The notes below the pieces were generated by a model. The model saw nothing but the letters and a program-made list of their open reading frames with translations. It was not told the DNA's origin and made no database searches. The position numbers and the translations under genes are program-made. Positions 2,747 through 24,747 of a stretch of DNA of 36,821 nt are shown one piece after another (positions within the stretch are counted from its first letter, which is position 1; the number at the start of each line of letters is the position of its first letter). Source of the stretch: Pirellulales bacterium (GTDB lineage: Bacteria > Planctomycetota > Planctomycetia > Pirellulales > JAEUIK01); NCBI GenBank assembly GCA_019745975.1, contig JAIESQ010000172.1, positions 1 through 36,821 of the forward strand, given 5' to 3'.

Positions 2747-3868
2747 CTACAACGGGGGCAATTTTGCCACTGCCTCGCCGAGCGGCAGCAAACTTCCGTC
2801 GGTGTAGGTCGTCATCGTCAGGTCAAGAGTCGAATGCCGGAGAATCTGCTGGACGACTCGGGGATGCACGCCCTGAATCGTCAACAACGTCGCGCAGCAT
2901 TTTCGGAGCGAATGGAAGTCGGCTCGCCTACCGTCAGCATCTGCGAACGCGATGCCTGCGGCGTTCAAGTCCCCTTTGAAACGACGAAGTATGTCGTGAG
3001 GGATTCGTACAACGGCGTCATTGGGTTCTTTGCTTTGCACAACCACTTGCAACGCCTGAACAAGCCACGGGACAATTGGAATGACCGCATCTTTGCCGTT
3101 CTTAGTATGCTCACCCGGAAGGTGAAGCGTTGGGAGCGAATCGTCAAGGCGTAGGTGCCGCACGCGGAGCGACTTCAACTCGTTTCGGCGCAGACCAGTC
3201 CCCACGGCCAGCCGATACAACAGTGCCCGTGCGGGATTGCGGTGCTCCGCCGTGCGAACTAGCGAAGTAAGTTCGGCGAGCGTCAAGGCACGCCGGAAGC
3301 GAACACCTTTGCCCACGGCCCGCGAGACATTCAGAAGCGGGTTGTTTGGCAGCCGCCCTTTCTTGGCCAGCCAGTTGGCGAAGGCCACCGCTGCCTGACG
3401 GTACGCATTGCGGGTGCGAGGGCTTCGACCGTGCTGTGCCAAGTCGGTCAGGAAACCATCGAACTTCGCCAACGTCAGGTCGTCGAGAGTACGGACACTT
3501 TGCCGTTGGAAGATTGTATCGAGAAGCCGTTTGGCTTCGGCGACGTGCTTGACGCTCCGCCCACGTCCCCGCACGTCGGCAAGATAGTCGGCGACGTGCT
3601 GGGCGATTGACTTTTTCTTATGCTCAGCAAAGTGATCTACGATGCCGAGGTTGAGTCGCCAAAGGTGCCGCTTCAATTCTCGCATCATCCGTCGGGCTTC
3701 GGTCTTCTCCGCCGCAAGCGGGACTTTGACGCGACGACCAGCCTTGGAGAAAACGGCGTAGAACTTGCGGCTATAGTCAATCCGCTTCGTTGCACCGGCT
3801 GTTCCTTTTCGTACCCGCTTTCCGTTCGGCAGGACGTATCTAACAATCCGAATTTTGGTGATGAACAT
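2747..3868 (-). CDS. tyrosine recombinase (phage-type integrase)
   Basis: A complete site-specific recombinase of about 373 residues. The N-terminal arm- and core-binding region includes SIAQHVADYLADVRGRGRS and the SAM-like four-helix part. The catalytic domain shows the first Arg in AVGTGLRRNELKSL, the Lys-containing beta turn near HTKNGKDAV, the HSLRKCCATLL box, and the RHSTLDLTMTTYTDG box with the nucleophilic Tyr. All catalytic positions are visible, so it is probably active. Start chosen at ATG 3868 (MFITKIRIVRYVLP) behind GGGCGAGG; a longer frame begins at 3919. A tRNA 3' half and a second, broken integrase lie immediately upstream, marking an integration hot spot. Confidence 0.88.
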   Translation of the reverse strand: MFITKIRIVRYVLPNGKRVRKGTAGATKRIDYSRKFYAVFSKAGRRVKVPLAAEKTEARRMMRELKRHLWRLNLGIVDHFAEHKKKSIAQHVADYLADVRGRGRSVKHVAEAKRLLDTIFQRQSVRTLDDLTLAKFDGFLTDLAQHGRSPRTRNAYRQAAVAFANWLAKKGRLPNNPLLNVSRAVGKGVRFRRALTLAELTSLVRTAEHRNPARALLYRLAVGTGLRRNELKSLRVRHLRLDDSLPTLHLPGEHTKNGKDAVIPIVPWLVQALQVVVQSKEPNDAVVRIPHDILRRFKGDLNAAGIAFADADGRRADFHSLRKCCATLLTIQGVHPRVVQQILRHSTLDLTMTTYTDGSLLPLGEAVAKLPPL

Positions 3869-3990
3869 GCGGCCTCGCCCTTTGCTAGAAAGGCAAGGCA
3901 ATGGCTGCGGATAGCCCAACCACTGGACTAACCCTCGGACCAGGCGGTCGTAAGTCTTTGTGTGACAATGACTTTCGCCAAGCCACCGTC

Positions 3991-4035
3991 ATTCTCTTAA
4001 TCAGAGGGTTGATGGTTCGAGTCCATCAGGGGGCA
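3991..4035 (+). pseudogene. tRNA 3' half (probable attachment-site remnant)
   Basis: A clean T arm (GATGG, loop TTCGAGT, CCATC at 4011-4027), a 3' acceptor strand AGGGGGC and discriminator A are present. Before them is an anticodon arm with one mismatch and the loop CTTAATC. No matching 5' acceptor strand (GCCCCCT) or D arm is upstream, so only the 3' half exists. The broken integrase at 4001-4570 runs antisense into this piece and stops there, as is usual when an element integrates at a tRNA 3' end. Confidence 0.75.
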
Positions 4036-4570
4036 CCTGCTCGAAACTCGCGACCACGCACGTGGTAGCAACCTCGTGCAAAGCCCCGCAACTCGCGGGG
4101 TTTTTTATTGGCGTCGATTTTTTGTGCGAGCCGTTGCTTGCGGGTGCGGCAGGTTGCTGCATCGCTTTTTGCAGCGCCCCTTCTGTAGGTGACTTGACGC
4201 CACCCTTGGCGGCCCGAGCGAAATGATCGTCGGTGACTTGCAAGTAGTGCTTCGCCGCCACGGATTGCGAGTTCCCCATCCAGGCCGTGACTACGTGCAG
4301 CGGGTGCTCCTCCGCGAGCTCCGTCTCCCTGGTGCTGCGAAGATTCTGAAACAGCTTGGGCCAAGGCTCCAACCCAGCTCGGCGGATGATCCGCTCGAAC
4401 TGGGTTCGCAGATTGGAATCGGAGCTTCGGTAGCGCGTGATGACGAACTCGGTTCGCTCCTTGGCCACTGCAAGCACCTCCTCGAGATACTGGCGCAGCT
4501 CGGGGAATAGGGGAATCTGCCGAGTCGCCTTCCCCTCGTGGTGTTCAGTCTTGGGACTCGGGACGGTCAT
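4001..4570 (-). pseudogene. C-terminal half of a second tyrosine recombinase
   Basis: Recognisable catalytic-domain residues: [59 protein letters not shown], and [19 protein letters not shown] with the nucleophile Tyr. The N-terminal DNA-binding half and the first catalytic Arg are missing. The reading frame is joined at 4566-4570 to an unrelated DUF3987 fragment. The tail [11 protein letters not shown] is only antisense tRNA T-arm sequence. Inactive remnant of an integrated element, different in family from the intact integrase next to it. Confidence 0.8.
4084..4106 (+). terminator. rho-independent terminator
   Basis: CCCCGC and GCGGGG form a 6-bp GC stem around AACTC, followed by six T. 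An AAA/TTT extension is possible. It lies 48 nt after the tRNA 3' half and is probably the original tRNA terminator. Confidence 0.8.
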
Positions 4571-5042
4571 GCATTTCGACAACGACACGTCGGGCGACGC
4601 AGGCAGAGCAGGTCGCGATGCTCAACAAGCCGGCCAGATCGACGGGAGTCTGGGTCGATATGGCCTCTGCTTTGGCCCAATCTCGGAGCGGTTCGGGCAG
4701 CGATTTAATAGGGAATCGCGGCAGTGCCTGCTGCTCGAGCGGCTGGAATTCCTGCCAAACGGATGCCTGCGGTGCAGCTGAAAGGCTCGAAGTAACCTTG
4801 TTGCCTGCTGGGCGTTTCGCATATTGCTTCGCTTTCACCAGAACTTCCTGCAGCTCGCCCTCTTCCAATGGAGGGCGATTCTGCTGATTCCAGCGTTCGA
4901 GCAGCGATTTAGCATCTGAATCGGCTAACCCAAGCGCAGCCGGCGGGACCAAGCTAGCAGGCTGCCAATGTGCGAACTTCCGAACTTTTCGCGAACCCGG
5001 GAAACCCGGCCGGCGTCTAAGAAGTACAGCTTGGACAGGCAC
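4566..5042 (-). pseudogene. truncated DUF3987 / primase-like element protein
   Basis: The N-terminal half carries a PriCT-like helix pair (AKSLLERWNQQNRPPLEEGEL followed by QEVLVKAKQYA). It continues into the opening of a DUF3987 (YfjI-like helicase/primase) domain: FPIKSLPEPLRDWAKAEA then [20 protein letters not shown]. The ATPase core that should follow is gone. The frame meets the second integrase at about 4566-4570 and stops 18 nt later. Such proteins are replication genes of integrative elements and often sit upstream of the integrase. One deletion between the two genes explains the arrangement. The start is uncertain because the first 30 residues do not match the family. Confidence 0.65.
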
Positions 5043-5251
5043 AGCCTGTTCTGTGCCCGACAGCTAGAGCGGATAGACCTTCGATGACTTTCTTACGATC
5101 GAGCTCGTTTCAAGAACGCATAGGTGCGGGTTATTCCGCGCCGCGAGGATGCTCCGCGCATCAAAGTGTGCGATGCAGTTGCCTCGCGGGGAATATGCCC
5201 TCGCCCAAACTGCGCTTGTGACGCTCGGCCGCGACTACACGACGAAATGGC

Positions 5252-5288
5252 AAAGGCCTGGTCTCACAAGGACATCGGGCCTTTTTTT
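5252..5288 (+). terminator. rho-independent terminator upstream of the tRNA array
   Basis: AAAGGCC pairs with GGCCTTT across a 19-nt loop and is followed by a run of seven T. It ends 42 nt before the first tRNA and would isolate the array from upstream transcription, or act as an attenuator in its leader. Nothing recognisable lies between 5043 and 5251. Confidence 0.65.
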
Positions 5289-5330
5289 GTTGGCCGGATT
5301 CGGACGCGCAGCAATCAGAAGGACAACGAC

Positions 5331-5402
5331 GGGTCGGTAGCTGAGACGGTTTAGCGCTTGGCTGAAGACCAGGAGACGAGGATTCGAGCGCCTCCCGACC
5401 CA
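5331..5402 (+). tRNA. tRNA-Phe(GAA)
   Basis: Acceptor GGGTCGG/CCGACCC, anticodon loop CTGAAGA, discriminator A. In the T arm the universal G53-C61 pair is replaced by A-G, and the D stem is only 3 bp. First gene of the array. Confidence 0.85.
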
Positions 5403-5439
5403 CTTGCGCTCAGCGTGCGCGCTGACAGCAAGCACCGAT

Positions 5440-5513
5440 GGCTCGTTCGTCTATCGGCTTGAGGATACTGCCCTTTCAAGGCGGAGAGATGGGTTCGACT
5501 CCCATACGAGCTG
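5440..5513 (+). tRNA. tRNA-Glu(TTC)
   Basis: Close to standard bacterial tRNA-Glu (TTCGTCTA D-arm start, CTGCC/GGCGG anticodon stem, loop CTTTCAA). The acceptor GGCTCGT/ACGAGCT ends in a G1-T72 wobble, with discriminator G; the exact 5' base is uncertain by one. Confidence 0.9.
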
Positions 5514-5525
5514 CTCAAGAAAGAA

Positions 5526-5597
5526 CGGGATGAAGGGGAACGGTGCCCCGCGTGCCCTGGGAGCACGAAACAGTCGGTTCGACTCCGACCTTCCCGA
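5526..5597 (+). tRNA. tRNA-Pro(TGG) with C33
   Basis: C1-G72 as in proline tRNAs, discriminator A, anticodon stem CGTGC/GCACG. The loop is CCTGGGA, so position 33 is C, not the near-universal U. The acceptor has one T-T mismatch at the sixth pair. It is followed after one base by the next tRNA. Confidence 0.85.
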
Positions 5598-5598
5598 C

Positions 5599-5669
5599 TG
5601 TCCGGTGTTGTAACGGGAGCATAGCGATCTGATACGTCGCCAGCGGTGGTTCGACTCCACCTCGGACAA
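5599..5669 (+). tRNA. tRNA-Ile(GAT)
   Basis: Acceptor TGTCCGG/TCGGACA, anticodon stem GCGAT/GTCGC, loop CTGATAC, T arm GGTGG/CCACC. The D stem is weak. Ends are uncertain by one base. Confidence 0.8.
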
Positions 5670-5735
5670 CTCAGAACCGGAGATGAACGATGCAGGGAAC
5701 ACAACGGCTCAAACGCATACGCCCGACTTGCAATT

Positions 5736-5807
5736 GGGGTCGTGGCGTAACGGCAGCGCTTCCGCCTTTTAAGCGGAATGGTAAGGGTTCGACTCCCTTC
5801 GGCCCCA
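5736..5807 (+). tRNA. tRNA-Lys(TTT)
   Basis: Acceptor GGGGTCG/CGGCCCC, anticodon stem TCCGC/GCGGA, loop CTTTTAA, discriminator A. Regular fold. Confidence 0.9.
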
Positions 5808-5810
5808 CAA

Positions 5811-5892
5811 ACAGGCTAGAGGCAACAGGCCACAGGCTCGAGGAAAAAGCCAACCTCTGCTGCTGACCTCTGGTCTCTGGCCTCTGGCCTGT
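5811..5892 (+). repeat. heptamer-repeat hairpin in a tRNA spacer (copy 1)
   Basis: The left arm begins ACAGGC and is purine-rich. The right arm is a tandem heptamer run (CTCTGGT, CTCTGGC, CTCTGGC) ending GCCTGT. The arms can pair imperfectly across the spacer. Related to the repeats flanking the four-helix-bundle gene at 6282-6641. Confidence 0.7.
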
Positions 5893-5925
5893 CTTGTTCT
5901 TTGACAATTCGACCAGTGATTCGAC

Positions 5926-5996
5926 GCGCCCATGATGTAGCGGCAGCCTGCTGCCTTGCCAGGGCGGAAGTGCGGGTTCGACTCCCGCTGGGCGCT
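5926..5996 (+). tRNA. tRNA-Gly(GCC)
   Basis: Perfect 7-bp acceptor GCGCCCA/TGGGCGC, loop TTGCCAG in stem CTGCC/GGCGG, discriminator T as usual for glycine. The only glycine tRNA in the array. Confidence 0.92.
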
Positions 5997-6003
5997 TCGG
6001 CTT

Positions 6004-6078
6004 CGATGTGTGGGGTAGCCTGGAAAGAGCGCGTGCTTCGGGAGCACGAGATCGGCGGTTCGAATCCGCCCGCATCGA
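6004..6078 (+). tRNA. tRNA-Pro(CGG)
   Basis: C1-G72 acceptor CGATGTG/CGCATCG, discriminator A, stem CGTGC/GCACG with loop TTCGGGA (normal U33). The D stem pairs poorly. Confidence 0.88.
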
Positions 6079-6084
6079 CCTTGC

Positions 6085-6158
6085 CAGGGTGTAGCGAAGT
6101 CTGGCATCGCGCAAGCTCGGGGAGCTTGAGATCGCAGGTTCGAATCCTGCCACTCTGA
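6085..6158 (+). tRNA. tRNA-Pro(GGG) with C33
   Basis: C1-G72 acceptor CAGGGTG/CACTCTG, strong D stem GCGA/TCGC, anticodon stem CAAGC/GCTTG with loop TCGGGGA. Position 33 is C. Confidence 0.88.
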
Positions 6159-6165
6159 CTCTGAT

Positions 6166-6240
6166 TGCGGTGGGGCCTGTGCTGGTACAGGCAGGCGCCT
6201 GTTAAGCGCCCCTTCGCCGGTTCGATTCCGGCCGCCGCAG
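6166..6240 (+). tRNA. tRNA-Asn(GTT)
   Basis: Acceptor TGCGGTG/CGCCGCA, discriminator G, stem GGCGC/GCGCC, loop CTGTTAA. The D stem is unusually long (GCCTGT/ACAGGC, 6 bp), and positions 8-9 are GG instead of TA. Confidence 0.9.
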
Positions 6241-6245
6241 CTGCA

Positions 6246-6280
6246 AGAGGCCAGAGGTGAGAGACCAGAGGCCAGAGGGT
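6246..6280 (+). repeat. left arm of the hairpin flanking the four-helix-bundle gene
   Basis: Tandem degenerate heptamers (CAGAGGT, GAGAGAC, CAGAGGC, CAGAGGG). It is the inverted complement of 6657-6690 with about 25 of 28 core positions matching, so the two enclose the gene at 6282-6641 as the base of a long stem. Confidence 0.8.
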
Positions 6281-6281
6281 A

Positions 6282-6641
6282 TTACGCTTCGGCGCGAAGT
6301 GACCGGACAAGGCCGTTGAGGACTTTGCAGGTTTCAACTGCTAAAGCGGACAACTGCTTGGTCGGTTCCGCACCCAAGAATCCAAGTCGATGGGCAAGCG
6401 AGACCTGATATTCAACTTCGTGCGCCGAGCCGTGAGCCATGTCGAGAAATCGAATGTAATCTGCCAACGAGTCTCGGCCACATCCTTCAACGGTATTCGA
6501 TGCCACCGAGACCGCCGCACGTCGCAACTGCGACGTCAGGCCGAACTGCTCTTCGCGAGGAAACGAGCTAGTGTGCTTGTAAACGGCAACTGCGAGTTGA
6601 TCTGCTAGCTCGAAGGCCCTGAGTTTTCTGTGGTCACGCAT
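6282..6641 (-). CDS. four-helix-bundle protein (23S rRNA intervening-sequence type)
   Basis: A 119-residue all-helical protein of the S23/IVP family (TIGR02436-like). Visible marks are the opening KLRAFELADQLAVAVYKHT, FPREEQFGLTSQLRRAAVSV followed by ASNTVEGCGR, and the third helix DYIRFLDMAHGSAHEVEYQV. Known of the family: genes of this type lie inside stem-loops that interrupt 23S rRNA genes; free-standing copies exist and their role is unknown. Here it is the only gene opposite to the tRNA direction, and heptamer inverted repeats (6246-6280 and 6657-6690) enclose it, reproducing the IVS layout in a tRNA spacer. Probably a passenger element, not part of the tRNA function; nucleic-acid binding is only an inference. 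Confidence 0.9.
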   Translation of the reverse strand: MRDHRKLRAFELADQLAVAVYKHTSSFPREEQFGLTSQLRRAAVSVASNTVEGCGRDSLADYIRFLDMAHGSAHEVEYQVSLAHRLGFLGAEPTKQLSALAVETCKVLNGLVRSLRAEA

Positions 6642-6656
6642 GTGCGCAGTCTAACG

Positions 6657-6690
6657 TCCTCTGCCCTCTGGTCTCTACCCTCTGGCCTGT
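6657..6690 (+). repeat. right arm of the hairpin flanking the four-helix-bundle gene
   Basis: Pyrimidine-rich heptamers (CCTCTG, CCCTCTGGTCTCTACCCTC, TGGCCTGT), the inverted counterpart of 6246-6280. It ends 3 nt before tRNA-Gln(TTG). Confidence 0.8.
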
Positions 6691-6693
6691 TCT

Positions 6694-6764
6694 TCGGGGA
6701 TCGGCTAACGGTAGGCTGCCTGGCTTTGAACCAGGTGGTGGAGGTTCAACTCCTTCTCCCCGAA
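6694..6764 (+). tRNA. tRNA-Gln(TTG)
   Basis: Perfect acceptor TCGGGGA/TCCCCGA, stem CCTGG/CCAGG, loop CTTTGAA, T loop TTCAACT, discriminator A. Confidence 0.9.
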
Positions 6765-6802
6765 CTCGACGACGTGGGCAGATGTCGTAAACGCACATAG
6801 AT

Positions 6803-6877
6803 TCCAGAGTAGTTGCTGCTGGTAGTGACGCCTGGCTCTGAACCAGGAGGTCGTTGGTTCGATTCCAACCTCCGGAG
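6803..6877 (+). tRNA. tRNA-Gln(CTG)
   Basis: Stem CCTGG/CCAGG, loop CTCTGAA, T arm GTTGG/CCAAC, discriminator G. The acceptor TCCAGAG/CTCCGGA has one A-C mismatch. Confidence 0.87.
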
Positions 6878-6885
6878 CTTTGGGA

Positions 6886-6972
6886 ACAGGCCAGAGGTAA
6901 GAGGCCAGAGGGCGAGAGAGAAGAACGTCCAATGAATCCACCTCTGGCCTGTCGCCTGTCGTCTCTCGCCTG
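6886..6972 (+). repeat. heptamer-repeat hairpin in a tRNA spacer (copy 3)
   Basis: ACAGGCCAGAGG at 6886-6897 is the exact inverted complement of CCTCTGGCCTGT at 6941-6952. Further heptamers lie on both sides. It holds no gene, only about 40 nt between the arms. Confidence 0.8.
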
Positions 6973-6978
6973 CGCGAC

Positions 6979-7064
6979 GGAAGTCATCCGGCCGGATGAG
7001 GAGCCTGTCTTGAAAACAGGTGGCGGCCTCGCGCCGCTTGTGGGTTCGAGTCCCACGGCTTCCG
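6979..7064 (+). tRNA. tRNA-Ser(TGA)
   Basis: Type II tRNA with a long variable arm; acceptor GGAAGTC/GGCTTCC, discriminator G, stem CCTGT/ACAGG, loop CTTGAAA. Regular serine features. Confidence 0.92.
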
Positions 7065-7069
7065 CCTGC

Positions 7070-7141
7070 GGTCCCGTGGTCCAGCGGCTACGACTCCTGG
7101 CTTACATCCAGGCAACGGCGGTTCGATTCCGTCCGGGACTA
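7070..7141 (+). tRNA. tRNA-Val(TAC)
   Basis: Acceptor GGTCCCG/CGGGACT (G1-T72 wobble), discriminator A, stem CCTGG/CCAGG, loop CTTACAT. Confidence 0.9.
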
Positions 7142-7145
7142 CTTG

Positions 7146-7257
7146 GTTCAGGTACGCCAATTGGCAGAGCGGCTCGGCTCGGGCACCGCGGGGGCACCAC
7201 GCGCAGCGTGGTCCCGTGGTCGCCGCGCGGTTGCCGGTTCGACTCCGGCCCTGAGCA
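7146..7257 (+). tRNA. tRNA-like gene with a ~50-nt hairpin insertion in the anticodon loop
   Basis: Acceptor GTTCAGG/CCTGAGC, T8-A9, leucine-like D arm, T arm GCCGG/CCGGC and discriminator A are intact. The anticodon stem CTCGG (7173-7177) finds its partner CCGCG only at 7223-7227, with one mismatch. The ~45-nt interval starts CTCGGGCACCGCGG, ends CCGTGGTCG and contains a nested hairpin (ACCACGC/GCGTGGT). If the insertion sits after position 37, the anticodon would read CGG, but this assignment is unsafe. Alternatives are an oversized variable arm or a decayed gene. Confidence 0.6.
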
Positions 7258-7264
7258 CACTCGT

Positions 7265-7357
7265 GGCTCGGTAGGCAACTGGCAGACCACCTTGGCTCGG
7301 GCACCGCGGTACTCCGTGGTCGCAGGGATGCTGTGGGTTCGAGTCCCACCTGAGCCA
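7265..7357 (+). tRNA. tRNA-like gene with a ~28-nt hairpin insertion in the anticodon loop
   Basis: Acceptor GGCTCGG/CTGAGCC, T8-A9, D arm GG/CC, T arm GTGGG/CCCAC and discriminator A. Anticodon stem CCTTG (7290-7294) pairs fully with CAGGG at 7323-7327, leaving a normal 5-nt variable loop. The loop is 28 nt and folds as ACCGCGG-TACT-CCGTGGT. It shares both flanks of the insertion (CTCGGGCACCGCGG and CCGTGGTCG) with its neighbour at 7146-7257. Anticodon undetermined. Confidence 0.6.
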
Positions 7358-7373
7358 CTGACAAAAGCAACAA

Positions 7374-7448
7374 GTCCTCGTGGAGCAGCCTGGAGTGCTC
7401 GCCGCCCTGTCACGGCGGAGATCACGGGTTCAAATCCCGTCGGGGACG
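7374..7448 (+). tRNA. tRNA-Asp(GTC)
   Basis: Acceptor GTCCTCG/CGGGGAC, discriminator G, D stem GAGC/GCTC, stem CCGCC/GGCGG, loop CTGTCAC. Confidence 0.93.
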
Positions 7449-7451
7449 CCT

Positions 7452-7525
7452 GGCACGGTACGCAAACGGGCAAAGCGGCGAAGCTCAAACCTTCGTGTCT
7501 GCGGGTTCGACTCCCGCCTGTGCCA
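7452..7525 (+). tRNA. tRNA-Leu(CAA) with a short variable loop
   Basis: Acceptor GGCACGG/CTGTGCC, discriminator A, stem CGAAG/CTTCG, loop CTCAAAC. The variable region is only 5 nt (TGTCT), whereas bacterial leucine tRNAs carry a long variable arm. Confidence 0.85.
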
Positions 7526-7533
7526 CTCGAATT

Positions 7534-7620
7534 GGGTTGTGCTCCTCGCGGCGGCCTGTAAAGCCGTCGTCACAAAACAAGCGAGGTGGACGACGAGAGG
7601 TTCAATTCCTTCACGACCCA
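7534..7620 (+). tRNA. tRNA-Tyr(GTA) lacking most of the D arm
   Basis: Acceptor GGGTTGT/ACGACCC, discriminator A, stem GCGGC/GCCGT with loop CTGTAAA, and a long type II variable region with a CGTC/GACG stem. Only about 10 nt lie between the acceptor and anticodon stems, where about 19 are needed for a D arm. Confidence 0.75.
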
Positions 7621-7624
7621 TTTA

Positions 7625-7697
7625 GGCCCGCTCGTCTATCGGTTGAGGACACCAGCCTCTCAAGCTGGAAAGACGGGTTCGATTCCCGTGCGGGTCA
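7625..7697 (+). tRNA. tRNA-Glu(CTC)
   Basis: Acceptor GGCCCGC/GCGGGTC, discriminator A, glutamate-type D arm (TCGTCTA), stem CCAGC/GCTGG, loop CTCTCAA. Confidence 0.92.
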
Positions 7698-7702
7698 TTC
7701 AT

Positions 7703-7784
7703 GACCAGGTGGTGAAATGGCAGACACGCGACGCTCAGAACGTCGTGCCTTAAAGGCGTGGGAGTTCGACTCTCCCCTTGGTCA
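7703..7784 (+). tRNA. tRNA-Leu(CAG)
   Basis: Normal type II leucine tRNA: acceptor GACCAGG/CTTGGTC, discriminator A, stem CGACG/CGTCG, loop CTCAGAA, 14-nt variable arm. Confidence 0.93.
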
Positions 7785-7788
7785 CTCG

Positions 7789-7884
7789 AGCAGGCACGAG
7801 GGGAGAGACGACAGGCTAGAGGTCGAGCGCAGATGAGTTTTGAGCGCGAACCCTCTCGTCTCTGGTCTCTCTCCTCTAGCCTGC
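7789..7884 (+). repeat. heptamer-type inverted repeat in a tRNA spacer (copy 4)
   Basis: The left part reads GCAGGCACGAGGGGAGAGAC; the right part ends with CTCTGGTCTCTCTCC then TCTAGCCTGCC. An imperfect long hairpin without a gene. Confidence 0.65.
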
Positions 7885-7891
7885 CTACGAC

Positions 7892-7958
7892 GCAGGTGGG
7901 CCAGTGCTCAGCCGAGCCTCATAAGCTTGGACTGCCGGGTGCGACTCCCGGACCTGCA
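7892..7958 (+). tRNA. tRNA-Met(CAT) or Ile2(CAT)
   Basis: Stem CGAGC/GCTTG with loop CTCATAA; the three G-C pairs of an initiator are absent. The acceptor has only six clear pairs (GCAGGT/ACCTGC), the D arm is short, and the T loop is TGCGACT with G55 in place of the universal U. Elongator Met and lysidine-type Ile cannot be told apart here. Confidence 0.75.
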
Positions 7959-7990
7959 ATTTGGCGCGCGTCGGGGCAGGCGCGCCATTG

Positions 7991-8065
7991 GGCCGGGTAC
8001 GCAAACGGAAAAGCGGCGAGGTCGAGAGCCTCGTGATTCTGTGAGTTCGACTCTCACTCCGGTCA
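7991..8065 (+). tRNA. tRNA-Leu(GAG) with C33 and a short variable loop
   Basis: Acceptor GGCCGGG/TCCGGTC, discriminator A, stem CGAGG/CCTCG, loop TCGAGAG with C at position 33, and a variable region of only 7 nt (TGATTCT). Confidence 0.85.
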
Positions 8066-8074
8066 CTCGAAAAC

Positions 8075-8147
8075 GATCCCGTGGTCCAACGGCGAAGACG
8101 CCTGGGTGACAACCAGGAAAGTGATGGTTCGATTCCATCCGGGATCA
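8075..8147 (+). tRNA. tRNA-Val(GAC)
   Basis: Perfect acceptor GATCCCG/CGGGATC, discriminator A, stem CCTGG/CCAGG, loop GTGACAA. Confidence 0.93.
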
Positions 8148-8158
8148 CTATGCGAATC

Positions 8159-8230
8159 GGTCTGTAGGTGTTTTGCGCGGCACACCTCCTCGGTAAGGAG
8201 GAAGACCGGGTTCGACTCCCGGGCGGACCT
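8159..8230 (+). tRNA. tRNA-Thr(GGT) with C33
   Basis: Acceptor GGTCTGT/GCGGACC, discriminator T, D stem GTGT/ACAC, stem CCTCC/GGAGG with loop TCGGTAA, so C33. Confidence 0.87.
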
Positions 8231-8248
8231 CTGCACAACGAATAGCAA

Positions 8249-8319
8249 GGGCTGCTGGTCCAACGGGACGACGCCTGGCCTGCAACCAGGAAATCGGGGT
8301 TCGACTCCCCGGCGGTCCA
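8249..8319 (+). tRNA. tRNA-Ala(TGC) with C33
   Basis: The acceptor GGGCTGC/GCGGTCC includes the G3-T70 pair, the alanine identity mark. Discriminator A; stem CCTGG/CCAGG with loop CCTGCAA, so C33. Confidence 0.9.
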
Positions 8320-8327
8320 CTTGAAAT

Positions 8328-8399
8328 AGCCAAGAGACCACAGGCGAGAGGCCACAGAACACAAACCCTCTGGTCTCTGGCCTCTCGCCTCTGGCCTGA
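8328..8399 (+). repeat. heptamer-repeat hairpin in a tRNA spacer (copy 5)
   Basis: The right arm is tandem heptamers (CTCTGGT, CTCTGGC, CTCTCGC, CTCTGGC); the left arm is its imperfect complement (GAGACCACAGGCGAGAGGCC). No gene inside. Confidence 0.7.
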
Positions 8400-8403
8400 T
8401 TTC

Positions 8404-8487
8404 GGAAGGTAGCCGGATATGGTTTGCCGGGACGTCTTGCTAAGGCGTTTCCCAACTGGGATGAGGGTTCGACTCCCTTGCCTTCCG
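8404..8487 (+). tRNA. tRNA-Ser(GCT)
   Basis: Type II tRNA, acceptor GGAAGGT/GCCTTCC, discriminator G, D stem CCGG/CCGG, stem ACGTC/GGCGT, loop TTGCTAA, variable arm hairpin CCC/GGG. Confidence 0.92.
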
Positions 8488-8492
8488 CTTGC

Positions 8493-8565
8493 GCCTCGAT
8501 GGTGAAAAGGACGATCACTCCTTGCTTCTACCAAGGCATTCCGGGTTCGAATCCTGGTCGAGGCA
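8493..8565 (+). tRNA. tRNA-Arg(TCT)
   Basis: Perfect acceptor GCCTCGA/TCGAGGC, discriminator A, stem CCTTG/CAAGG, loop CTTCTAC. Confidence 0.93.
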
Positions 8566-8633
8566 CTTGGGTCGGCGTGACCGCATGAATCGGGCGGTAA
8601 GCTCGTGGAAGTCGGACCTTTTAGGAGAGACCA

Positions 8634-9311
8634 ATGACAGCCGGTATTCATCAAGCATTCGAAGCTATCGGAGCCGACGTGGTCGTTCAAACGGCCGGCG
8701 ACGTCTTCGAGATCGATGTGCAGCAACAAGCAGGTCGCGAGACCTTCCTGTTGCGCTATCCGTGGTCGGATGTCATCACGGCGGAAGCACTCGACGTTAG
8801 GCCAAAGCACCGCCACTTGGTCTTGGATGTAACGGGTTGGCGCCTGCCGATCAGCAGACGCTTCCTGTGCGGACACGACGAACGGCACTGGTTTGTGGCA
8901 TCGCTGCCGGTGGATCGACAAACGATGACCGTTCGCGGTGCCATGGAGTCGCTTAAGCCAGCACTCGTGCTGCGCGAACAAAAGCGGCTCGGCGTCAAGC
9001 ATCGCAGGCACCGTCGCAAGACGGCTGCGTACGTACGTCAAGGCGAGTGGTTTTTTCTGCCGCGGCCGATGATGCATGTGGGAGATCGGGCTGTCCGCCA
9101 CGGGCAATTGGTGCGCGAAGGTGGAAAGCCCCACCGTGTTGAATGGTTGTATCGTCCTGAAGGCACGGACCAGTCGTTCGTTCGCGGCGCGGTGTCACAT
9201 CCGGACCACGAAACGATTCGACTGCAAGTGTGGCACCGGGTCGTGCAGAACACCGAGGTTCGGCAAGCTCCGGTCGAGAACAAGTTCGCCCGCATGGCGT
9301 ACTTGGATTGA
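8634..9311 (+). CDS. uncharacterised basic protein embedded in the tRNA array
   Basis: 225 residues, no family I can name. Start ATG 8634 follows AGGAGAG at a good distance. The N-terminal half (1-100) is predicted alpha/beta with no clear motif. Residues 122-130 (KHRRHRRKT) are strongly basic. The second half holds motifs that look conserved: RQGEWFFLPRP (135-145), GKPHRVEWLYR (164-174), then SHPDHETIRLQVWHRVVQNT (188-207), with His residues that could bind metal or RNA. There is no signal peptide or membrane segment, so it is cytoplasmic. It is transcribed with the tRNAs, between tRNA-Arg(TCT) and tRNA-His, and is followed by a GC hairpin at 9318-9342. Location and charge suggest RNA or tRNA binding (inference). 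Confidence 0.85.
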   Translation: MTAGIHQAFEAIGADVVVQTAGDVFEIDVQQQAGRETFLLRYPWSDVITAEALDVRPKHRHLVLDVTGWRLPISRRFLCGHDERHWFVASLPVDRQTMTVRGAMESLKPALVLREQKRLGVKHRRHRRKTAAYVRQGEWFFLPRPMMHVGDRAVRHGQLVREGGKPHRVEWLYRPEGTDQSFVRGAVSHPDHETIRLQVWHRVVQNTEVRQAPVENKFARMAYLD

Positions 9312-9317
9312 ACTAGC

Positions 9318-9342
9318 GAGCCGGCAGCGCTGCTGGCGGCTC
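9318..9342 (+). terminator. GC hairpin without a T run, after the embedded gene
   Basis: GAGCCG/CGGCTC plus CAGC/GCTG around a 3-nt loop. Without a T run it is more likely an mRNA-end stabiliser or processing structure than a terminator. Confidence 0.55.
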
Positions 9343-9350
9343 ACATTATG

Positions 9351-9424
9351 GTGTCCGTGGTGTAGCGGTTGCTGCACGTCTGGCTGTGGACCAGAAGGTG
9401 GCGGTTCGACTCCGCTCGGACACC
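9351..9424 (+). tRNA. tRNA-His(GTG)
   Basis: Perfect acceptor GTGTCCG/CGGACAC with discriminator C and a G at the -1 position (9350), both histidine marks. Stem TCTGG/CCAGA, loop CTGTGGA. Confidence 0.95.
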
Positions 9425-9446
9425 CTGTCGAGGAAGGAACGGAACA

Positions 9447-10133
9447 ATGGTCGCCAAGATGCTCGAGCGCCCCACGTTGGTCCTCAACCGCAACTGGCAG
9501 CCGGTGAACGTGGCCACGGTCGGCCGCGCACTGACGCTGTTGTGGAACGAGTCGGCTCGCGTGGTCGATCCGGCCGACTTCCAGCTTTACACCTGGGAAG
9601 ATTGGTCGCGGCTGCGCCCGCGCCAGGGTGCACCGTTCATCCAGGCGGTGCGGCAGCGACTGCGCGTGCCGGAGGTGATCGTGCTGGCCGAGTACGACCG
9701 GCTGCCGACAGCGGCCGTCAGCTTCAGCCGCCGGAACGTGTTCAAGCGGGACCACTGGACCTGCCAGTACTGCGGCCGCCAGGGACGGCAGCCGGTATTG
9801 AACGAGCAGGGAAGTGACAAGCCGGTTTGTCAACCGAACCCGCGCGCCAATAGGAACCGTCTCCGACGGCAGCCCGGCGGCGAAGAGCTGACGATCGACC
9901 ACGTCGTGCCGCGGTCGCAGGGTGGTGTTTCGGCTTGGGACAACTGCGTGCTGGCGTGCATCGACTGCAACAAGCGGAAGGCTGATCGCACGCCGCGCGA
10001 GGCGGGCATGAAGCTCCGCAAGGCGCCGGTGCGGCCGGCCTGGAAGCCGCTGTACGCCCGCCACGAAGTGCGGATTGAAAGCTGGTCGAAGTTCATCAGC
10101 GAGACGTACTGGAATGTCCCGCTGGAAAGTTGA
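9447..10133 (+). CDS. HNH endonuclease embedded in the tRNA array
   Basis: 228-residue HNH-family nuclease. Start ATG 9447 has AGGAAGGAAC upstream; the longer frame would begin inside tRNA-His. The N-terminal part (6-80) carries VLNRNWQPVNVATVGRAL, a module shared by stand-alone HNH proteins. The nuclease core has a zinc-binding CQYC (106-109), the catalytic strand TIDHVVPRSQGG (His152), Asn166 in WDNCVLAC, and CIDCNKRKADRTP with the second Cys pair and the last catalytic Asn/Lys. A ~35-residue basic insert lies between the first Cys pair and the DH motif. No methylase or specificity subunit is nearby. It could be a homing-type nuclease spreading the array, or act on nucleic acid in the system. 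Confidence 0.9.
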   Translation: MVAKMLERPTLVLNRNWQPVNVATVGRALTLLWNESARVVDPADFQLYTWEDWSRLRPRQGAPFIQAVRQRLRVPEVIVLAEYDRLPTAAVSFSRRNVFKRDHWTCQYCGRQGRQPVLNEQGSDKPVCQPNPRANRNRLRRQPGGEELTIDHVVPRSQGGVSAWDNCVLACIDCNKRKADRTPREAGMKLRKAPVRPAWKPLYARHEVRIESWSKFISETYWNVPLES

Positions 10134-10142
10134 GGTTTGAAC

Positions 10143-10173
10143 GCGCCCATCGGCCCCAGCGGCCGGTGGGCGC
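10143..10173 (+). terminator. GC hairpin without a T run, after the HNH gene
   Basis: GCGCCCATCGGCC pairs with GGCCGGTGGGCGC (13 bp, one G-T) around CCAGC. Four nt later tRNA-Trp begins. Same layout as after the 225-residue gene. Confidence 0.6.
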
Positions 10174-10176
10174 TAC

Positions 10177-10246
10177 ACGAGTGTGCTCCTGGGAGAGCAA
10201 GCGGTCTCCAAAGCCGCCCCACGGGGTTCGACTCCTCGCGCTCGTG
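10177..10246 (+). tRNA. tRNA-Trp(CCA)
   Basis: Acceptor ACGAGTG/CGCTCGT with A1 and discriminator G, as in tryptophan tRNAs; stem GCGGT/GCCGC, loop CTCCAAA. Only one base separates the acceptor and D stems. Confidence 0.9.
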
Positions 10247-10328
10247 CTGTGGTGACGAATGCCGGTCATCGCACCCACGACCAAACCGCCTGGGAGCGAT
10301 CATGCGGCTGGCGTCGACACCAAGAAAT

Positions 10329-10402
10329 GCCGACGTGGCTCGACTGAGAAAGGCGCCTGTCTTGTAAACAGGTCAATGCTGGTGCGAATCCAGTCGTCGG
10401 CT
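10329..10402 (+). tRNA. tRNA-Thr(TGT) with G55
   Basis: Perfect acceptor GCCGACG/CGTCGGC, discriminator T, stem CCTGT/ACAGG, loop CTTGTAA. The T loop is TGCGAAT, so the universal pseudouridine-55 site is G. Confidence 0.9.
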
Positions 10403-10413
10403 CTGAAGTCAAC

Positions 10414-10485
10414 GTCCCGATGGTGTAGCGGATTGCATCGGACCCTCCGAAGGTCCAGGCCCTGGTTCGAATCCAGGTCGGGATA
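10414..10485 (+). tRNA. tRNA-Arg(CCG)
   Basis: Acceptor GTCCCGA/TCGGGAT (G1-T72), discriminator A, stem GGACC/GGTCC, loop CTCCGAA. Confidence 0.92.
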
Positions 10486-10499
10486 CTGCGAATGTTGAC

Positions 10500-10572
10500 G
10501 CCTTGCGAGTGTGCCGGATATGCACGGCAGTGTTCGAAGCTGCAAGACGAGGTTCGATTCCTCGGCGGGGCA
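10500..10572 (+). tRNA. tRNA-Arg(TCG)
   Basis: Acceptor GCCTTGC/GCGGGGC with two G-T wobbles, discriminator A, stem GCAGT/GCTGC, loop GTTCGAA, T arm CGAGG/CCTCG. Confidence 0.9.
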
Positions 10573-10584
10573 CTAAAACAGAAC

Positions 10585-10657
10585 GTCCTTGGGGTGTGCC
10601 GGATTCGCATCCGACCCTGCGAAGGTCGAGGACCAGGTTCGATTCCTGGCGAGGACG
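10585..10657 (+). tRNA. tRNA-Arg(GCG)
   Basis: Acceptor GTCCTTG/CGAGGAC, discriminator G, stem CGACC/GGTCG, loop CTGCGAA. The anticodon GCG is very rare in bacteria, which normally use ACG edited to ICG for CGC and CGU. Confidence 0.92.
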
Positions 10658-10660
10658 CTT

Positions 10661-10732
10661 GACGCTGGAGCCAGACGGCACGGCGACCGCCTGCAAAGCG
10701 GTTGGAAGTGGGTTCGACTCCCATCGGCGTCT
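10661..10732 (+). tRNA. tRNA-Cys(GCA)
   Basis: Acceptor GACGCTG/CGGCGTC, discriminator T (cysteine identity mark), stem ACCGC/GCGGT, loop CTGCAAA. Confidence 0.93.
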
Positions 10733-10749
10733 ATTGCGAAGCGTGGGGT

Positions 10750-10772
10750 TTGAATCCCCGAGACTTGAGCAG
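10750..10772 (+). pseudogene. T-arm-like tRNA remnant
   Basis: GTGGGGTTTGAATCCCC at about 10750-10766 is a T arm with no acceptor, D or anticodon arm around it. Probably the debris of a lost tRNA. The spacer to 10938 also holds a pyrimidine-rich stretch (TCAAGCCTCGCGCCTCAAGC) resembling the other repeat arms. Confidence 0.4.
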
Positions 10773-10938
10773 TCGTGCAACGGACTCTCCCTCGAGTCTC
10801 AAGCCTCGCGCCTCAAGCCTATTAAGGCAAGCATCGATTCGGCCGGGCCGGTGGCGCGCGGCGTTCCGTGGTTTTGCGACCCGGTGGGCACAGCGCGTTC
10901 CACGCACGGAATCTGACGAAGGCCGTGTCCGTGCCACC

Positions 10939-11011
10939 ATGTGGTTAGCTCAATGGACAGAGCACCAGACGTTAAATCTGGCTGTTGCAGGTTCGACTCC
11001 TGCACCACCGC
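10939..11011 (+). tRNA. tRNA-like gene, anticodon TTA (UAA reading), G33
   Basis: Clear D arm (TAGCTCAATGGACAGAGCA), stem CCAGA/TCTGG, T arm GCAGG/CCTGC. It resembles a lysine tRNA in the D arm and T arm. The 7-nt loop CGTTAAA puts TTA at 34-36 and G at 33. The acceptor has five good pairs and two terminal mismatches, so charging is doubtful. Last tRNA of the array. Confidence 0.65.
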
Positions 11012-11466: not shown

Positions 11467-12594
11467 ATGAACCTGAAGATTCTCAAGCGCGTAAAGGTCC
11501 GCAGCTACGAGCGCGGCCTGTACTTCCGCGACGGCGAGTTCCGCGGCTTGCTGGAGGCTGGCGCGCACTGGTTCGTCGATCCGCTGGGCAAGGTGCGTGT
11601 CGATGTCGTTTCGCTGCGCGAGCCGTGGCTCGTGCACGAGAAGCTCGACGTGATCGTGCGCTCCGGCGCGCTTAACGACCGCGCCATCGTGCTCGACCTG
11701 AAGGACCACGAGCGGGCCTTGGTTTGGATCGAGGGCCGCTTCAGCCACATCCTGCCGCCGGGCCTGTACGCTTACTGGACCGTGCTAAAGGACGTGAAGT
11801 TCGAAGTGGTCGACGCCCGCAGCGTGCGCTTCGAGCACCGCGAGCTGCCGGTGATCAGCCGTTCGCCGCTGGCCGACCGCGTGCTGGAGATCGGCGCGGT
11901 TGAGCCGCACCACCAGGGCGTGCTGTTTATCGACGGCGAGTTCGTCGCGACGCTGCCGCCGGGCCGGTACGCCTTCTGGAAGAACGTGGCCCAGGTCAAG
12001 TTCATCCAGGAGGACCTGCGCGAGGCGATGTTCGACGTGAGCGGCCAGGACATCATGACGGCCGACAAGGTCACGCTGCGGATGAACGCGGTGGTGACCT
12101 ATCGCGTGGTCGATGCCCGAGCGGCCGTCAGCACGGCGGACGACGCCAAGCAGGCCCTATACCGAGAGGCACAGCTTGCCCTCCGGGCTGTAGTCGGCGC
12201 CCGCGAGCTCGACACGTTCCTGACCGACAAGGACGCGGTCGCCACGGAACTGGCCGAGATCGTCCGGCCGCGCGCCCGTGCGCTCGGTTTGGAGTTGATC
12301 GCGGTCGGTATCCGCGACGTGATCCTGCCGGGCGAAATGAAGGACCTGATGAACAAGGTCACGGAGGCCAAGAAAGCCGCCGAGGCCAACCTCATCGTCC
12401 GCCGCGAGGAAACGGCCGCCATCCGCAGCCAGGCCAACACGGCTCGGCTGCTGCAGGACAATCCAACGCTCATGCGCCTGCGTGAGCTGGAGGTCCTGGA
12501 AAAGGTGGCCACGAACTCGAAGCTCAACGTCGTCCTGGGCGACCGAGTCCTTGGAGATCGCGGCCTGGCCGACCGCGTGGTCAACTTGCTGTAG
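11467..12594 (+). CDS. slipin (SPFH/Band-7 family) protein
   Basis: 375 residues with a strong ribosome site (AAAGGAGG). The SPFH/Band-7 domain spans about 165-320 (EDLREAMFDVSGQDIMTADK, VTLRMNAVVTYRVVDARAAV, ELDTFLTDKDAVATEL), then a coiled helix (EAKKAAEANLIVRREETAAI) and the C-terminal tail. Unlike classical slipins there is no N-terminal membrane segment. Residues 1-185 instead contain three related modules (about 14-56, 81-120, 148-185), each with an aromatic G.L..DG.F..LPPG.Y.FW pattern. Known of the family: Band-7/slipin genes recur beside bacterial RNA-repair genes (RtcB, Ro60). Here it follows the tRNA array in the same direction and ends in a terminator, so it is the likely last gene of that locus. 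A scaffold role is inference. Confidence 0.92.
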   Translation: MNLKILKRVKVRSYERGLYFRDGEFRGLLEAGAHWFVDPLGKVRVDVVSLREPWLVHEKLDVIVRSGALNDRAIVLDLKDHERALVWIEGRFSHILPPGLYAYWTVLKDVKFEVVDARSVRFEHRELPVISRSPLADRVLEIGAVEPHHQGVLFIDGEFVATLPPGRYAFWKNVAQVKFIQEDLREAMFDVSGQDIMTADKVTLRMNAVVTYRVVDARAAVSTADDAKQALYREAQLALRAVVGARELDTFLTDKDAVATELAEIVRPRARALGLELIAVGIRDVILPGEMKDLMNKVTEAKKAAEANLIVRREETAAIRSQANTARLLQDNPTLMRLRELEVLEKVATNSKLNVVLGDRVLGDRGLADRVVNLL

Positions 12595-24733: not shown

Positions 24734-24747
24734 AGGGAAGCCCAACG

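Follow-up and report, generated by a model that had tools for sequence, protein, structure and literature searches.

Why would a bacterium whose chromosome holds a complete, scattered set of tRNA genes carry a second, tightly packed one, and what might switch it on? This question is raised by a tRNA array in a Pirellulales bacterium (GenBank assembly GCA_019745975.1, contig JAIESQ010000172.1). The window referred to throughout is the whole contig of 36,821 nucleotides (nt; 36.8 kb), part of a 99.94% complete assembly of a 6.98-Mb genome. A leader that can form two alternative hairpins lies directly before the array, and three protein genes, encoding an endonuclease, a slipin and a 225-residue protein of an unnamed family (P225), lie within or behind it. 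From the sequence comparisons presented here, we lean modestly towards the reading that the locus is a conditionally expressed, redundant tRNA operon, held by an attenuator and released under translational stress, which would work when host tRNAs are cleaved or undermodified.

A second tRNA set in a conserved order

The array and the protein genes that accompany it are laid out as follows.

5331 to 11011, plus strand: tRNA array, with 32 tRNAs called by ARAGORN plus Tyr and two interrupted Leu genes
About 7146 to 7257, plus strand: Leu-TAA slot with a hairpin insert in place of the anticodon, aligned with the Leu-TAA of six relatives
About 7265 to 7357, plus strand: Leu-TAG slot with a shorter form of the Leu-TAA-slot hairpin in place of the anticodon, placed by alignment with relatives
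About 7536 to 7621, plus strand: tRNA-Tyr(GTA) missed by ARAGORN, with loop CTGTAAA, in the Tyr slot of relatives
8634 to 9311, plus strand: P225, inside the array before His
9447 to 10133, plus strand: HNH endonuclease of the array-associated type (Pfam HNH, 2.9e-13), embedded in the array
11467 to 12594, plus strand: slipin (SPFH/Band_7) downstream of the array, with 63-84% identity to the slipins of eight further loci (array loci in seven cases)

ARAGORN, run on the window, placed 32 tRNA genes between 5331 and 11011, all on the plus strand. The Rfam tRNA model found 22 genes in the window at its gathering score, and 24 in the whole-genome run. With Tyr-GTA and the two Leu genes with interrupted loops the total is 35, which reproduces the count of 33 foldable and two interrupted tRNAs on one strand given by an earlier, sequence-only reading. 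The gene at 9351, listed as "???", can be read by eye as His-GTG from its loop, CTGTGGA. The array covers all 20 amino acids, and P225, HNH and slipin lie as that reading had described. Chance is excluded as the source of the array because of its density, about six tRNAs per kb, and the identical gene order in relatives.

Two unusual features of the array led to candidate identities that were rejected. The interrupted Leu genes have a 16-nt piece in common, whose exact copies occur only at these two places in the genome. They were considered as carriers of tRNA introns; since the anticodon bases are absent from both, excision could not restore an anticodon, and insertion or decay is likelier. 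The last gene (10939-11011) was called "Stop" by ARAGORN, with anticodon TTA, and it has G33 in place of U33, so it is not credible as an ochre suppressor. An odd terminal tRNA after Cys or the last Arg is found in several arrays (the window, L031, L068, L073, L077, L078, L091, L148 and L509), with anticodons varying between TTA, ATG, ACG, CAC, AGG and AAC. A transfer-messenger RNA call at 8116-8488, overlapping array tRNAs, is spurious and was set aside, as was an ARAGORN Cys call outside the array at 27763, inside a long open reading frame (ORF; 24730-28332).

The rest of the genome contains 48 ARAGORN tRNAs at 49 places, with 44 anticodons for all 20 amino acids, nearly all single-copy. This scattered host set is complete without the array, so the array is a second, redundant set, as the sequence-only reading had supposed, and the idea that it supplies the sole copies of its tRNAs is rejected. 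Its anticodons duplicate chromosomal ones, save Arg-GCG, which corresponds to ACG in the host. Under simple wobble rules, 60 of the 61 sense codons are read by the host, 52 by the window array and all 61 by L031, with 42 tRNAs the most complete relative array among those looked at. The sole codon missed by the host, ATA, is presumably read by lysidine-modified Ile-CAT. These counts bear on the notion of a codon-supply operon for foreign or island genes, a role that the accessible part of PMC4807772 proposes for the Ile-UAU of planctomycete clusters. As the host lacks at most one codon and the array nearly duplicates its set, we regard this explanation as very improbable.

The own genome and 96 relatives, 97 genomes in total, were compared. 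P225 occurs in 12 of them and an HNH relative in 92, 33 of these at E ≤1e-40. Among 13 P225 stretches of 20 kb, six hold 9-42 tRNAs and one is a remnant, while 13 of 29 HNH loci of about 3 kb each contain at least four tRNAs. The common order begins with Phe, Glu, Pro, Ile, Lys, Ile, Lys, Thr, Gly, Pro, Asn, Ser, Gly, Gln, Gln, Ser, Val, Leu, Leu and Asp. It continues with Leu, Tyr, Glu, Leu, Met, Leu, Val, Thr, Ala, Ala, Ser, Arg, (P225), His, HNH, Trp, Thr, Arg, Arg, Arg and Cys. Slot losses vary between genomes, and the remnant (L036 in G004) retains Phe and Glu together with pieces of P225 and HNH. G087 has, away from its main array, another small cluster of tRNA matches (C1:6297306-6297948, L467), most of them low-scoring.

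A slipin 72-83% identical to that of the window lies downstream in 7 of the 17 array loci with room for it; the count excludes the remnant as well as L076, L080, L081 and L086, whose arrays run into a contig end. Slipin is also found at three P225 loci of GTDB contigs (L091, L140, L148), and at L033 it adjoins P225 with no tRNAs. The expectation that HNH, the 225-residue protein and slipin would stand beside arrays elsewhere therefore holds for each of them singly; all three are seldom together.

A leader with two alternative hairpins

The sequence before tRNA-Phe divides into the following parts.

5211 to 5290, plus strand: predicted attenuator leader, before the first tRNA (tRNA-Phe)
5211 to 5230: anti-terminator segment
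5253 to 5265: terminator 5' arm
5266 to 5270: terminator loop
5271 to 5283: terminator 3' arm, followed by a T-run to 5288

In 19 arrays, one layout precedes tRNA-Phe: a TGCGCTTGTGACGCTCGGCC-type segment (changed in L256), a spacer, a terminator and a T-run. The terminator has the form AAGGCCCGGTGTC..GACACCGGGCCTT plus T-run and ends 0 to about 60 nt before the tRNA, and the upstream segment is complementary to the terminator 5' arm and loop. The alignment comprises 16 of the 19 upstream sequences, with L076, L089 and L256 left out and the terminator of L069 placed by eye.

Across the 16 leaders, 98.1% of the terminator cells are paired, with both-side changes at 5 of 13 pairs. The first gene is thus preceded by a covarying intrinsic terminator, with an imperfect stem in the window. 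For the competing hairpin, 80.5% of cells are paired, compared with 22-43% when the segment is slid. Set against 300 letter shuffles per leader, the anti-terminator duplex outdoes 297 or more of them in 15 of 16 leaders and 265 in L090, and its energies are near those of the terminator. Pairing of a mutually exclusive anti-terminator is therefore clear, with modest covariation. In two unaligned leaders both arms have changed together, TTATGAC with GTCATAA in L032 and GGTAACAC with GTGTTACC in L256.

Searched with a covariance model of the leader, in which no tRNA sequence is included, 56 of the 97 genomes give matches at E ≤ 0.001; many of the weak ones are probably ordinary terminators. Matches of at least 45 bits number 40, in 30 genomes, and for 35 of these a tRNA called by ARAGORN on the same strand lies no more than 113 nt downstream, mostly with more tRNAs following. 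Thirteen of the 40 belonged to the training set; outside it, 22 of 27 precede a tRNA, or 18 of 23 once four previously seen arrays are subtracted. In arrays of other phyla a leader search (R1) gave only weak matches, in a run covering 142 loci, with the P225 virus loci L175-L254 outside it. We consequently claim the leader for this order only.

Rfam, searched for a T-box or other leader, gave no match at E ≤1 for window positions 5000-5340. No sigma-54 or sigma-70 consensus was found upstream of the arrays, in the 19 by regular expression or in the window by scan. A three-codon leader ORF (NTG CGC NNG TGA) was seen by eye; it has no evident Shine-Dalgarno sequence, does not occur in all leaders, and is a lead only.

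Anticodon loops, stems and the case for selection

The anticodon loops of the planctomycete arrays were compared with those of 143 host tRNAs outside arrays in three genomes (G000, the own genome, G004 and G087). Each tRNA sequence was counted once, and only tRNAs with a 7-base loop were used; the host sets exclude L385, L399 and L422 (array tRNAs), L467, and some low-scoring places in G004 and G087. In Leu-CUN, A37 is present in 40 of 40 array tRNAs (Leu-CAG 11/11, Leu-GAG 15/15, Leu-TAG 14/14) and G37 in 9 of 9 host tRNAs. Array A37 against host G37 stands at 14/16 versus 3/3 for Arg-TCG, 17/20 versus 2/3 for Arg-CCG, 19/19 versus 3/3 for Asp and 21/21 versus 3/4 for His. Gln is less clear, with two array A37 counts of 12/12 and 16/17 and host G37 in 3/4 and 1/3. 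In Pro, 32 of 33 array tRNAs retain G37, and Phe runs in the opposite direction, with G37 in 11 of 18 array tRNAs and A37 in 3 of 3 host tRNAs. Furthermore, the arrays contain 20 Arg-GCG and one Arg-ACG, compared with none and three in the hosts, as well as 13 Ile-TAT, compared with one in the host sets.

G37 is the site of TrmD in Leu-CUN, Pro and Arg-CCG, whereas Arg-ACG requires TadA and Ile-CAT requires TilS. The array tRNAs, Pro excepted, appear to sidestep the bases that depend on these enzymes, and avoidance of modification may be the cause. Resistance to anticodon nucleases would likewise predict loop changes. Beyond the planctomycetes, Leu-CUN has A37 in 15 of 18 tRNAs from 13 array loci of other phyla and plasmids.

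The tRNA bodies were examined for signs of maintenance. Paired cells amount to 97.1% in the Leu-GAG slot (15 short-armed sequences), 92.1% in Trp (23 sequences, three of another type) and 99.7% in Phe (17 sequences), with both-side changes at 14 of 21, 10 of 21 and 7 of 20 pairs, respectively; in each slot the covariation score was reached by 0 of 500 shuffles. Synthetase determinants are retained as well: Ala G3:U70 is present in 31 of 33 array tRNAs, and discriminator bases match the host pattern for most amino acids. The GGG/CCC anticodon stem occurs in 0 of 9 array Met tRNAs and is also missing from the host candidates; the window copy has C1:A72. Leu-CAA, Leu-TAA, Leu-GAG and most Leu-TAG genes of the arrays are 74-80 nt long, too short for a long variable arm (hosts 83-87), while Leu-CAG, Ser and Tyr remain long.

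These results bear on whether the array could be a genomic parasite in decay: tRNA genes that have degenerated as a cluster, accompanied by a homing HNH, spread by recombination and kept without benefit. Planctomycete clusters are called degenerate in the accessible part of PMC4807772, the Rfam scores of array tRNAs lie below those of most host tRNAs, and the window has insertions and lost slots; the remnant in G004 and the leader copies without arrays fit the same picture. Compensating stem changes, kept anticodons, synthetase determinants and a conserved leader before the arrays instead point to selection on the tRNA products, and we consider such a parasite improbable.

If the array is an attenuated operon, transcription would start upstream of or near 5211, and the transcript would either stop at the terminator before tRNA-Phe or read on, depending on whether the conserved segment pairs with the terminator 5' arm. 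Impaired translation would let the anti-terminator win, and the precursor then made would be cut into about 33 tRNAs and charged by host synthetases. With loops that differ at modification-dependent bases (G37, A34 of Arg-ACG, C34 of Ile-CAT) or at bases read by anticodon nucleases, these tRNAs would sustain translation despite cleavage or undermodification of the host tRNAs, and HNH, P225 and slipin would be accessory genes of the same module. The proposal of the sequence-only reading, that an accessory module may restore or protect translation upon damage to host tRNAs, thereby gains two clues from sequence: the attenuator and the altered anticodon loops. A more ambitious version casts the locus as an emergency decoding kit, an operon widespread in planctomycetes. 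Its leader would sense failing translation and release a near-complete tRNA set that avoids 1-methylguanosine 37, inosine 34, lysidine 34 and nuclease-recognized loops. P225, as a new protein family also present in tRNA-rich viruses and in the arrays of several bacterial phyla, would assist, and protein synthesis would continue after host tRNA cleavage or undermodification. We offer this version tentatively and think it rather unlikely to hold in full.

Several observations weigh against the attenuated operon. The anti-terminator has both-side changes at only 3 of 16 pairs, a result reached by 37 of 500 shuffles. Its duplex with the arm of its own leader (mean -22.8 kcal/mol) is barely stronger than that with arms from other genomes (-21.1 kcal/mol); nearly equal cross-genome pairing is expected of conserved segments, so this control cannot separate coevolution. 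The window leader folds no better than its shuffles (z -0.95, compared with -3.0 to -4.6 for four other leaders), and its terminator was missed by a simple terminator scan. The leader in general has neither a clear leader peptide nor a candidate sensor protein or ligand. Five of the 40 strong leader matches have no close downstream ARAGORN tRNA: L506 and L507 (nearest 444 nt), G049:C231:31953-32027 (L510), G004:C21:103635, which has a weak Rfam tRNA match 47 nt downstream, and a second copy in the own genome (C128:22889-22966; L469, L478), with no tRNA in about 10 kb downstream. The array-less copies on C128 and in G049 are remnants or leaders of something else. The loop pattern could stem from ancestry rather than selection, and its Asp (G5, A3, T1) and Arg (GCG 5, ACG 8) components are not general in the arrays of other phyla and plasmids. 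Slipin accompanies only 8 of 18 arrays, the window included, and P225 often occurs without tRNAs. Finally, the window copy is eroded, with two Leu genes devoid of anticodons, slots lost to hairpin or S23 insertions and the reduced reach of 52 codons.

Companion genes, mobility and known systems

Three further features lie in and upstream of the array.

6282 to 6641, minus strand: S23/IVP four-helix-bundle ORF between inverted-repeat arms, in the Ser-CGA/Gly-TCC slot of relatives
2747 to 3919, minus strand: tyrosine integrase upstream of the array (Pfam Phage_integrase, 3.4e-18)
4001 to 4588: second, shorter integrase piece (Pfam Phage_integrase, 3e-07)

The S23/IVP ORF is an insertion in the array and stands outside the proposed function. 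Units resembling CAGAGGCCAGAGG form inverted repeats in the tRNA spacers (5809-5925, 6242-6693, 6879-6978, 7786-7885, 8321-8403 and 10760-10826). One of these encloses the ORF, some occupy tRNA slots of relatives, and weak copies are present elsewhere in the genome. In L073 and L078, S23 relatives lie between Ala-TGC and Ser-GCT.

No convincing Pfam, NCBIfam, PHROGs or PADLOC match was obtained for the P225 members. The best PHROGs match among them has an E-value of 0.0042; the window protein is without any Pfam or NCBIfam match, and it has one weak PHROGs match (E 0.096) and no PADLOC match at E ≤0.01. Its AlphaFold2 model (predicted local distance difference test score 84) yielded nothing at E ≤0.001 with Foldseek on PDB and BFVD, and with a best VIA-align Z of 3.1 and a lone PDB sequence match at E 0.96 we name no fold. 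Apart from P225 and overlapping frames, no family was found in more than four loci among the neighbours of solo P225 copies, and hhalign gave nothing that would make the proteins just upstream of plasmid-array HNH genes distant P225 relatives. The window HNH has about 30 extra residues (9777-9866) between its CxxC pair and HNH core, which 16 aligned relatives lack; HNH may drive exchange of the array. An RtcB gene lies elsewhere in this genome.

The suggestion that the array was transferred is borne out in part. An integrase lies upstream, and six other flank proteins of the window, searched beside the arrays of the same-family members L067 and L069, were not matched there. In three arrays of one genus (g35: L026, L032, L034), however, two DUF1501 genes are kept at similar distances, and the array looks inherited there. 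As to a place on a phage or prophage, the window, a whole contig, carries the integrase and a DUF1501 gene.

When GTDB contigs were scanned with the P225 alignment, 80 of 205 relatives were kept; their phylum labels are record titles. Sixteen of these 80 loci, several of them short, have at least five tRNAs nearby. They belong to Planctomycetota, Verrucomicrobiales/Verrucomicrobia (L106, L115, L124, L149), Limisphaerales (L150), Rhodothermia (L107), Phycisphaeraceae/Phycisphaera (L117, L127), Chloracidobacterium (L143) and Calidithermus chliarophilus (L159). Several of these sixteen loci also have HNH and slipin relatives beside them, and the tRNA orders differ. HNH was matched in 69 plasmid records; of seven regions looked at, three have arrays (Nostoc L168, Acidiphilium L170, Frondihabitans L173) and four do not.

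In IMG/VR, where virus classing can err, at least five tRNAs occur at 34 of 80 P225 loci and 33 of 71 HNH loci. Terminase was searched in 35 of the 80 P225 virus loci, namely 30 of the 34 with at least five tRNAs (four look-alikes omitted) and five from long contigs; it was matched in nine records, eight of them above the cut-off. In the eight of these nine for which tRNAs were listed (G116 was left out), P225 is on the same strand as tRNAs among those listed, beside them or within about 5.5 kb, although five of the eight were picked for their tRNAs, so this proximity is not an unbiased test. One 94-kb virus-classed contig (L255) has 36 tRNAs in an array of the planctomycete type, together with leader, HNH and slipin.

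Such loci, together with the integrase upstream of the window array, are what would be expected if the array were anti-defence cargo, by which a phage or integrative element replaces tRNAs destroyed by host defence nucleases, the bacterial array being a resident copy. In the accessible part of PMC10264068, phage tRNAs with anticodon-loop changes are likewise proposed to be nuclease-resistant. Among the virus tRNAs near P225, however, Leu-CUN mostly has G37 (6 of 28 have A37) and long arms prevail, which indicates that the bacterial arrays are not simply recent prophage tRNAs. The common flanks of the three g35 arrays also speak against cargo, as does the lack of a P225 match in 72,556 plasmid and 50,697 phage records, collections that may hold few planctomycete phages. 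We therefore judge this explanation unlikely, though likelier than a decaying parasite.

For the attenuated operon, the leader offers a direct handle, as a short terminated RNA and read-through into the array are measurable under drugs or toxins. The loop pattern yields a precise claim that can be put to the test, on tRNAs independent of modification or resistant to nucleases, and both address the question of what large bacterial tRNA arrays do. P225, conserved and unnamed, is often encoded in arrays across phyla and on virus-classed contigs. Published precedents exist for tRNA arrays, for such clusters in planctomycetes, for their HNH companions and for a cyanobacterial array induced by stress. 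The open-paper literature searched yielded no precedent for the attenuator leader, for the loop pattern and short-armed Leu tRNAs of bacterial arrays beside compensating stem changes, for P225 or for the single tRNA order with slipin.

Among known systems, tRNA-rich phages resemble the window array in having tRNA sets with anticodon-loop changes against the host. They are virus genomes, their loop changes are judged by known nuclease sites, and the accessible part of the source describes neither leader nor P225 (PMC10264068). The tRNA array units of mycobacteria and of their phages and plasmids also resemble it, with at least 20 tRNAs, redundant anticodons, an embedded HNH and sequences unlike chromosomal ones; P225, slipin and an attenuator leader are not described in the accessible parts of these sources (PMC5966550, PMC12803027). 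The 32 ARAGORN tRNAs in 5.7 kb exceed the 20-tRNA size of such a unit (PMC5966550, as far as accessible), and the HNH gene of the window is embedded in the same manner. The planctomycete "degenerate tRNA gene clusters" come from the same phylum, are the same kind of cluster and include Ile-UAU. They are called partly degraded and dispensable, and order, leader, protein genes and compensation are not described in the accessible part of that source (PMC4807772). Leader elements for ribosome-targeting drugs are upstream RNAs that answer translation stress, as proposed for the window leader, but they precede protein genes, whereas the window leader precedes a tRNA array and has no proven leader peptide.

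A parallel to the proposed function is the trn operon and TrcR regulon of Anabaena sp. PCC 7120, for which the following rests on the accessible part of PMC10272220. The Anabaena trn array is silent until translation is inhibited, and its repressor regulon also holds HNH, an adjacent hypothetical-slipin pair and RtcB. The Anabaena array is plasmid-borne, controlled by a ribbon-helix-helix repressor and of known induction, while the window array, known from sequence, has a leader attenuator and P225. Both combine a large redundant tRNA array beside a full chromosomal set with HNH and slipin, which in the window lie inside and downstream of the array, respectively.

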